The translations under genes and the position numbers were made by a program. This document shows positions 62,055 to 64,000 of a DNA stretch of 64,000 nt, in pieces. Origin of the DNA: Streptomyces sp. WZ.A104 (GTDB lineage: Bacteria; Actinomycetota; Actinomycetes; Streptomycetales; Streptomycetaceae); contig NZ_NWVL01000014.1 in the NCBI RefSeq assembly GCF_002382885.1, forward strand, positions 1 through 64,000, written 5' to 3'. Position 1 is the stretch's first letter, and the number at the start of each line of letters is the position of its first letter. The notes under the pieces are model-generated. The model was given only the letters and a program-made list of their open reading frames with translations, did not search any database and was not told the DNA's origin.

Positions 62055-62414
62055 ATGAACGCACGGGGGGCACTCGGGCGGTACGGCGAGGATCTGGCGG
62101 CACGGCTGCTGACCGGAGCCGGGATGACCGTGGTGGAGCGCAACTGGCGCTGTCGCGCCGGAGAGATCGACATCGTGGCCAGGGACGGAGACGCTCTGGT
62201 CTTCTGCGAGGTGAAAACCCGCAGGTCGGAAGCCTTTGAACATCCCATGGCGGCGGTCGGCCCGGAGAAGGCGGACCGGCTGCGGCGGCTCGCCGAGATC
62301 TGGCTCGACCGGCACGGCGGGGCCCCGCCCGGCGGGGTGCGCATCGATCTGGTCGGGGTGATCGTGCCCCGGCGTGGCGCCCCGGTCACCGAGCACGCGC
62401 GGGGGGTCTCCTGA
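62055..62414 (+). CDS. YraN/UPF0102 family endonuclease-like protein
   Basis: 119-aa UPF0102 protein with a restriction-endonuclease-like fold ([29 protein letters not shown]; the E-x-D and E-V-K residues form the nuclease-type active site). Function unproven. ATG 62055 follows GGAGGTGG; upstream frame is in the DUF2469-yraN gap. Its stop codon overlaps the comM start by one base, the conserved yraN-comM pair. Confidence 0.93.
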
Positions 62415-63421
62415 TGGGCTTCGCACGAGCGTGTTCCGTGGCGCTGGTAGGCGTCGAGGGAGTGGTGGTGGAGGTCCAGGCCGACCTGGAGCCCGGGGTC
62501 GCGGCGTTCACCCTGGTAGGGCTGCCGGACAAGAGCCTGGTGGAGAGCCGGGACCGAGTGCGGGCCGCCGTGGTCAATTCCGGCGCCGAGTGGCCGCAGA
62601 AGAAGCTCACGGTCGGACTCTCCCCGGCCTCGGTCCCCAAGAGCGGCTCGGGCTTCGACCTCGCCGTCGCGTGTGCGGTGCTCGGCGCGGCGGAACGGAT
62701 CGACCCCGCCTCCATCGCCGATGTGGTGATGATCGGCGAGCTGGGCCTGGACGGCCGCGTGCGCCCCGTACGCGGTGTGCTCCCCGCCGTCCTCGCGGCA
62801 GCGGAGGCGGGTTACGAACAGGTCGTCGTCCCCGAGCAGACGGCCGGGGAGGCGGCGCTGGTGCCGGGGGTCTCGGTCCTCGGCGTCCGGAGCCTGCGCC
62901 AGCTCATCGCCGTCCTCTGCGACGAACCGGTGCCCGAGGAGCCCGTCGCCGACCAGGGACGCCCCGACGCCATGCTCGCCGGTCTCATGATCCCCGGCAC
63001 CGGCCTCGGTACGGGGCTCGCCCCGGCCGCCATGAGGGGCGAGGGGCACCGGCCGGACCTGGCGGATGTCGCGGGCCAGCCCCGCCCCCGTCAGGCCCTG
63101 GAGGTGGCGGCGGCCGGAGGACACCATCTGCTCTTCTCGGGACCGCCCGGTGCGGGCAAGACCATGCTGGCCGAACGGCTGTCGGCGGTCCTGCCGCCGC
63201 TGACCCGACAGGAATCCCTCGAAGTGACGGCGGTCCACTCCGTGGCGGGCATCCTCCCCCCGGGTGAACCGCTCGTCTCCCGGGCGCCCTACTGCGCCCC
63301 GCACCACTCGGCGACCATGCAGTCCCTGGTCGGCGGGGGCAACGGGATGCCGAGGCCCGGAGCGGTCTCGCTGGCCCACCGAGGGGTGCTGTTCCTCGAC
63401 GAAGCGCGGGAGAGAGTTTGA
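62414..63421 (+). pseudogene. comM: ComM-like Mg-chelatase AAA ATPase, truncated by an insertion
   Basis: N-terminal ~331 codons of a YifB/ComM family AAA+ protein (usually a little over 500 aa). ComM in other bacteria is a hexameric helicase that aids branch migration in transformation. The N-terminal S5-like domain, Walker A GPPGAGKTM (about 243) and Walker B VLFLDEA (about 331) are intact, then the expected PEF continuation is replaced by REVR-like residues and TGA at 63419. The missing C-terminal two-fifths cannot be found downstream in any frame. The protein is probably non-functional. Confidence 0.9.
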
Positions 63422-63536
63422 CGCCGAAGCGGACAGTACAGCATCGGCCGTTCAGTTCCGGCCCCCTTGACCAGCGCTGTCCGGCAGAGTGAAGGTCGTG
63501 CAACCAGGCGCAACGCGCTCGACAGGGAGGGACACC

Positions 63537-63770
63537 ATGGCCTTACGGTTCGTCGGTAAAGATCCCGAGTCCGGAGACCACGGATCACCCGCTGTGTGGG
63601 TGGACCAGGAGTCGAAGGATCTCGTGATCCAGGGGTGGACGGCAGATGAGCGGACCACGGGCGAGAGCTCGCGGGATGTGCCGATCCCCGGGCATGAGTC
63701 GGTGATCAGGGTTCCGAAGCGGATGATCCCGCTTCTCAGGGAGGCGCTCCGTGTCGCAGAGTCTGACTGA
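63537..63770 (+). CDS. Small accessory protein with TTA codon
   Basis: 77-aa protein (MALRFVGKDPESGDHGSPAVW...). GGAGGG lies eight bases upstream of ATG 63537. The third codon is TTA (63543-63545), so its translation should need the bldA tRNA. It has no signal, membrane or DNA-binding motif I recognise; the C-terminal IRVPKRMIPLLREALRVAE is a likely amphipathic helix. In Streptomyces such small proteins sit directly before DUF6879 genes in accessory clusters. It overlaps the next gene by 20 bases. Confidence 0.85.
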   Translation: MALRFVGKDPESGDHGSPAVWVDQESKDLVIQGWTADERTTGESSRDVPIPGHESVIRVPKRMIPLLREALRVAESD

Positions 63771-64000
63771 CTTCTCTGACCTCATCAGGTCGGTGCGGGA
63801 GTCAGCCGTGCATCTTGAGATGCGCGACACGTACGGCGTCGAGAACGAGATCGAAGGCTTCGCCGCATGGAAGCAAGGGCGTCGGCTTGACCCGGAGGAC
63901 CGGGGTTCGTGGTGGCGTCCTTGGCTCGACCTTGTTCAGGAGGTCACGGCCAAGGGCGTTGTCATCCGACGTGCCCGCATCGTCTCGGAGCCCGTCAGCG
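63751..64000 (+). CDS. DUF6879 family protein (3' end outside window)
   Basis: First 83 residues of a DUF6879 protein, read from GTG 63751: FSDLIRSVRESAVHLEMRDTYG, then WKQGRRLDPEDRGSW WRPWLDLV and GVVIRRARIVSEPVS are the family's conserved blocks. Function unknown; such genes are common in actinomycete accessory loci and often lie near XRE regulators. The start lies inside the 77-aa gene, so the two are translationally coupled. Codons ending in A or T (CTT, CGT, GTT) are more frequent than in the chromosome left of 63400. Confidence 0.82.
   Translation, partial: MSQSLTDFSDLIRSVRESAVHLEMRDTYGVENEIEGFAAWKQGRRLDPEDRGSWWRPWLDLVQEVTAKGVVIRRARIVSEPVS

Follow-up and report, generated by a model that had tools for sequence, protein, structure and literature searches.

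Loci of the WhiJ-BldB type, which include Scr1/Scr2, combine an XRE-DUF5753 regulator with a DUF397 protein, often together with abaA or iosA. DUF5753 is the sensing half of WhiJ-like regulators (development and antibiotic production), and passages of PMC10294661 describe an operator of three direct repeats (10-base consensus, CGXXCTCAAC) that is bound by WhiJ9, itself a regulator of the XRE-DUF5753 type. The literature passages that deal with DUF5753 do not describe its fold, and the open-access articles searched include none linking WhiJ with phospholipase D and none naming DUF6879 (PF21806), a family to which Pfam assigns no function. Both families are common in Streptomyces, and neither has been explained.

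The window analyzed here is a stretch of 64,000 nucleotides at the start of contig C46 (119,193 bp), which is part of an 8.1-Mb genome. An initial annotation of the window had singled out a gene for a 77-amino-acid protein that overlaps a DUF6879 gene by 20 bases at the edge of foreign DNA, and had suggested that this pair may form a functional unit, placed like the cargo or control genes of an element.

A serine-integrase element within yifB

Compared with the intact yifB of related genomes, which is uninterrupted at that point, yifB is broken here in the Walker B region (LFLDEA), and its second half resumes beyond a 7.6-kb insert (Table 1). The two parts of this comM-like gene are split by an element that carries a large serine recombinase/integrase (PF00239/PF07508). 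The pair begins about 130 bp inside the element, the 77-aa gene being its first gene, and the 20-base overlap at the edge of the foreign DNA is borne out by the positions of the two genes. A PHROGs scan of eight proteins returned matches for the regulator described below and the integrase only, and a DUF397 gene (27.2 bits, cut-off 24) lies downstream in the same element. Two other genomes (loci L073 and L074) share 4.3 kb of the element, from the cassette to the resolvase, at approximately 91% identity, and yifB is absent from the 16-kb stretches fetched around them; since the shared segment occurs there without yifB nearby, the cassette end of the element appears to move independently of the element's integrase.

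Table 1. Features of the locus on contig C46 (the window ends at position 64000)
Feature	Position	Strand	Basis or remark
yifB (comM-like), first part	62414-63421		Separated from the second part by the element
Left attachment core TCGACGAAGC	63396..63405	+	Inside yifB, at the break; intact yifB elsewhere and halves flanking the 7.6-kb insert
Left attachment arm GGAGAGAGTTTGACGCC	63409..63425	+	Sequence
Promoter-like TTGACC - 17 bp - TGAAGG	63467..63495	+	Sequence, ahead of the cassette
Candidate operator GTGCAACCAGGCGCAAC	63498..63514	+	Direct repeat GTGCAAC CAG GCGCAAC, 10-bp period, just past the promoter-like pair
AG-rich ribosome site	63525-63531		Ahead of the 77-aa gene
77-aa protein (S77) gene	63537..63770	+	First gene of the cassette; ATG start, TTA as codon 3
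DUF6879 gene (174 aa)	63751..64275	+	Runs past the window end; GTG start; predicted phospholipase-D fold without HKD motif
XRE-DUF5753 regulator gene	64294-65142		Third gene, beyond the window; begins 18 bp after the DUF6879 end
Second candidate operator copy	65147-65163		Beyond the window; after the regulator gene, ahead of the next small gene
Stretch with the small CxxC protein gene	65147-65440		Beyond the window; preceded by the second operator copy
DUF397 gene	65932-66156		Same element
Serine recombinase/integrase gene	69306-70994		PF00239/PF07508
Right attachment arm GGTGTCAAACTCGCTCC	~71012		Inverted copy of the left arm GGAGAGAGTTTGACGCC
Right element end TCGATGAGGC	~71030		Sequence
yifB, second part	~71030 onwards

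A three-gene cassette on mobile DNA

The unit at this locus is a cassette of three genes rather than a pair. The DUF6879 protein matches PF21806 with an E value of 1.4e-22 over the 83 residues visible in the window and of 3.3e-59 over its whole length (199.5 bits against a gathering cut-off of 23.9). No Pfam or NCBIfam family matched the 77-aa protein at E values up to 1, which leaves it without a Pfam family. The pairing is more than chance: of 101 genomes of the genus, 63 contain relatives of the 77-aa protein and 87 contain DUF6879, and at least 106 of 132 matches of the 77-aa protein have DUF6879 1 to 58 bp downstream. The product of the third gene is an XRE-DUF5753 regulator, scoring 114.2 bits against PF19054 and 51.2 bits against PF13560, both above the cut-offs, and matching NCBIfam NF058600 below its cut-off.

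We compiled 273 cassettes, made non-redundant by removal of near-copies and picked by matches to the 77-aa protein or DUF6879, not to the regulator. The regulator lies directly downstream in 263 of them and upstream in 4, whereas a contig end truncates 2 and the last 4 have none. The order 77-aa gene, DUF6879, XRE gene was found in 57 of 62 instances of the 77-aa family (61 large loci), and most of 20 DUF6879 loci seemingly without the small gene proved, when read, to have a divergent form of it upstream. The full trio is present at 73 of the 80 best named-genome loci among 569 relatives, with 1 more cut by a contig end, and at 62 of 69 viral-contig loci, with 4 more so cut; in two loci (L125 and L127), DUF6879 is the only one of the three genes that is missing. 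In 35 of the 273 cassettes, the 77-aa protein and DUF6879 share one reading frame, and in 194 of the remaining 238 the two genes overlap, the stop of the first coming no more than 15 nt before the DUF6879 profile starts, or beyond that point. The initial annotation was therefore right that the two genes belong together, as they are linked in hundreds of loci and overlap or fuse, and the 77-aa gene is not an artefact of a longer gene; the proposed unit, on the other hand, has to be extended from the pair to the trio, since an XRE-DUF5753 regulator accompanies the pair in nearly all of the cassettes. In a tree of the regulators, those of the cassettes are separate from 31 DUF397-linked ones (split support 100/100), and 5 unlinked regulators are nested among the cassette regulators.

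The 77-aa genes show two further peculiarities. Codon 3, a leucine codon, is the rare CTA or TTA in 134 of 182 genes, against 20 of 867 other leucine codons of the same genes; because TTA itself is not conserved at this codon, bldA dependence is not general. A subgroup (L135, L137, L139, and L149) carries the 77-aa domain twice in a single frame.

The suggestion that the pair is positioned as cargo or control genes of an element agrees with its occurrence on prophage contigs, in an isolated phage and on plasmids. Three scans of IMG/VR gave 158 loci (69, 76, and 13), certain contigs being counted more than once. Of the prophage contigs from the first scan, 56 were 25 kb or longer, and in 42 of these the cassette sits no more than 5 kb from an end, compared with 12.7 expected; the prophage ends in IMG/VR are software predictions. 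In the isolated phage Kromp, the trio corresponds to genes 31, 30, and 29 and sits between the holin/endolysin genes and the tyrosine integrase, away from the annotated immunity repressor, and DUF6879 was found on 93 plasmid records. The cassette is thus cargo common to actinomycete phages, plasmids, and integrated elements. It faces an endolysin-type gene in 35 of 273 cases, a spot that is a usual place for lysogenic-conversion genes. Amidase and small-protein clusters recur among its neighbors, in a clustering that was used for these clusters only; it was restricted to frames that show a G+C codon signature, and antisense noise is part of it. A family of small CxxC proteins is encoded downstream of the cassette in 26 of 273 cases and divergently upstream in 19; at the present locus, such a gene may be under the control of the cassette's regulator, because the second operator copy precedes it.

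Predicted folds and the candidate operator

The AlphaFold2 model of a 246-aa protein in which the 77-aa protein and DUF6879 are naturally fused (pLDDT 94.0, pTM 0.82) predicts a phospholipase-D fold for the DUF6879 part (residues 64 to 245; best Foldseek E value, 4.3e-4). Against the PDB, in a comparison that spans these residues only and leaves the 77-aa part outside, the top match reached a Z score of 11.6 with an rmsd of 3.5 over 144 residues, and the 50 listed entries with the best Z scores are all phospholipase-D-fold proteins or polyphosphate kinases; the structural matches include FAM83B and TrmBL2 as well as nucleases and phospholipases. The same fold is predicted for the DUF5753 half of the regulator (pLDDT 95.7), with FAM83B, Nuc, and NucT as top Foldseek matches and Z scores of approximately 10 over residues 79 to 266. 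Profile comparison aligned residues 96 to 161 of DUF6879 with residues 203 to 261, in the C-terminal part, of the cassette regulators (probability 94.9%, E value 4.2e-8), while the DUF397-linked regulators matched weakly in the same register (8.2%, 0.0042) and the controls, reversed DUF6879 and an unrelated recombinase, gave at most 0.2% (at most 0.4% across all reversed and unrelated profiles); the match is thus strong only for the cassette's own regulator lineage. When the PDB was searched by sequence, no convincing match was obtained for the alignments of DUF6879 and of the 77-aa protein, for the regulator, or for the DUF397 protein. Because of the common predicted fold and the profile match, DUF6879 is best regarded as a DUF5753 relative without a DNA-binding domain.

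With regard to the phospholipase-D superfamily, DUF6879 has the fold in the predicted model and lacks the HKD motif: H-x-K-x4-D is present in only 1 of 378 rows of the alignment, and the position equivalent to its lysine, set by hand via strand order, is Asp in 364, Glu in 3, and Lys in 0 of 367 rows. Because this motif is missing, an active nuclease was rejected as a reading of DUF6879. Five polar residues (E16, R67, E94, D113, and D118) are practically invariant, which suggests either a ligand pocket or an unusual chemistry.

A different comparison was made for the 77-aa protein. Its predicted layout of strands and a terminal helix resembles that of DUF397 as described in passages of PMC7159879, and both have a cysteine ahead of the second strand. 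Profile comparison gave a probability of at most 1.8%, so homology with DUF397 is not claimed, and none of 35 relatives of the 77-aa protein matched PF04149 (DUF397) at E values up to 10.

Upstream of the cassettes, CTTGAC words are enriched, with CTTGACG in 73 of 273 upstream regions, compared with 5 expected. Direct repeats at a spacing of 10 bp, as in the candidate operator, occur in 194 to 195 of 273 upstream regions, compared with 51 expected, whereas the remaining spacings between 8 and 24 bp occur in 33 to 66 (46 to 54 expected) and control stretches of the same loci contain the 10-bp repeat in 23 to 58 of 270 to 273 cases; by the criterion used, 78 of 273 upstream regions are without it. 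The pattern GYGCAAC-N3-GYGCAAC has two sites in the whole genome, both in the element, the pattern having been drawn from these two sites; a better test is provided by five other genomes, in which all 7 of 7 sites are at cassettes. For a second operator type, the analogous pattern gave mixed results: its sites were at cassettes in 3 of 3 cases in one genome (G011), 1 of 3 in a second (G068), and 0 of 2 in a third (G079), and two more genomes (G055 and G036) had none. Many cassettes, for example, that of L098, have a second 10-bp repeat near position -125 together with an enriched TAGCGT/CTAGCGT word, which suggests a divergent promoter under the same type of operator.

Proposed mechanism, alternatives, and known systems

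On balance, and with moderate confidence, we favor the view that the cassette is a mobile, self-contained regulatory unit of three genes, a local switch under autoregulation, with the pair serving the regulator as a partner that itself lacks DNA binding. From the position of the candidate operator and the precedent of WhiJ9, we infer that the XRE-DUF5753 protein binds the computed 10-bp-spaced direct repeats where its own operon begins and so represses that operon. The 77-aa protein and DUF6879 would work as one protein, whose most likely job, given the computed features of shared fold, profile match, fusion, and linkage in the trio, would be to associate with the regulator via the related domains; it would hold or release the regulator once a putative ligand fills the pocket formed by the five invariant residues. 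A bolder proposal, which we regard as unlikely, is that the 77-aa/DUF6879 protein is a ligand-gated anti-repressor that arose from a duplicated sensing half of the regulator, pairs with DUF5753, and lifts the regulator off the DNA, the signal being, for example, a nucleotide that is produced or set free when a phage attacks and is bound in a remodelled phospholipase-D pocket. If true, a one-component switch would have been split in two and spread by actinophages, sensing superinfection or the state of the host.

Several other functions can be considered. In a toxin-antitoxin system, the 77-aa/DUF6879 protein would be the toxin and the XRE protein both antitoxin and autorepressor, as would suit the mobile location, the tight linkage with overlap or fusion, the autoregulation-like candidate operator, and the nearly invariant polar residues of DUF6879; passages of PMC10364602 and PMC7159879 propose XRE-DUF397 pairs as such systems. 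We consider this doubtful, as DUF6879 has no nuclease motif and resembles the regulator's own domain, a likeness not required of a toxin, and as overexpression in S. coelicolor, according to passages of PMC10364602, showed clear toxicity for 0 of 14 DUF397 proteins, these being different proteins from those of the cassette. The IMG/VR loci (contigs partly repeated) and phage Kromp, the excess of cassettes near the ends of prophage contigs, and the frequent position facing an endolysin-type gene are also what would be expected of a prophage-encoded defence or superinfection-exclusion module that the XRE protein silences until an invading phage is sensed, a role to which we give a low probability. 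PADLOC (2023 library) had no match for the four proteins scanned, and no effector-like fold was identified.

It is very unlikely that the cassette feeds the WhiJ/BldB network of the host and alters development or antibiotic production, as host XRE-DUF5753 and DUF397 proteins do according to passages of PMC10294661 and PMC10364602, since the operator pattern occurs nowhere else in the genome, which argues for a local regulator, though cross-talk between the proteins themselves may occur. Control of the element's excision, raised as a possibility by the initial annotation and in keeping with the cassette adjoining the attachment site, can scarcely be credited: the whole-genome pattern search placed no copy of the candidate operator near the integrase gene, the only copies being at the cassette and before the next small gene; the cassette is also found on plasmids; and Kromp, in addition to the cassette, has an integrase and an annotated immunity repressor of its own.

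To conclude, the favored reading of the cassette as a local switch can be set against two groups of known systems. DUF6879 and DUF5753 share their predicted fold with the phospholipase-D superfamily, which comprises Nuc, NucT, Zucchini, and PLD3 as well as the noncatalytic FAM83B and TrmB/TrmBL2, but DUF6879 is without the HKD motif and has other invariant residues; by arrangement, the nearest is the regulator TrmB, whose sugar-binding domain has this fold. The shared phospholipase-D-like fold, the pocket without the usual catalytic residues, and the precise candidate operator turn two unexplained genes into testable parts, namely the DNA bound by the regulator, the hold of the partner on it, and the ligand that moves it. 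Since WhiJ-like regulators also sense through DUF5753, finding a ligand for one would guide work on the other. As in WhiJ-BldB loci, there is a regulator with an XRE helix-turn-helix and DUF5753, a small companion, and many paralogous copies per genome, and the 10-base unit of the candidate direct-repeat operator recalls that of WhiJ9 as given in passages of PMC10294661. Unlike those loci, the cassette has a regulator from a lineage of its own and a companion that profile comparison does not place in DUF397; a DUF5753 relative without helix-turn-helix (DUF6879) is added and often fused to the companion, and the whole is frequently phage-borne. By these comparisons, the cassette appears to work like WhiJ-type loci, but, because its 77-aa companion is not DUF397, it is not a member of the WhiJ-BldB or Scr1/Scr2 group.
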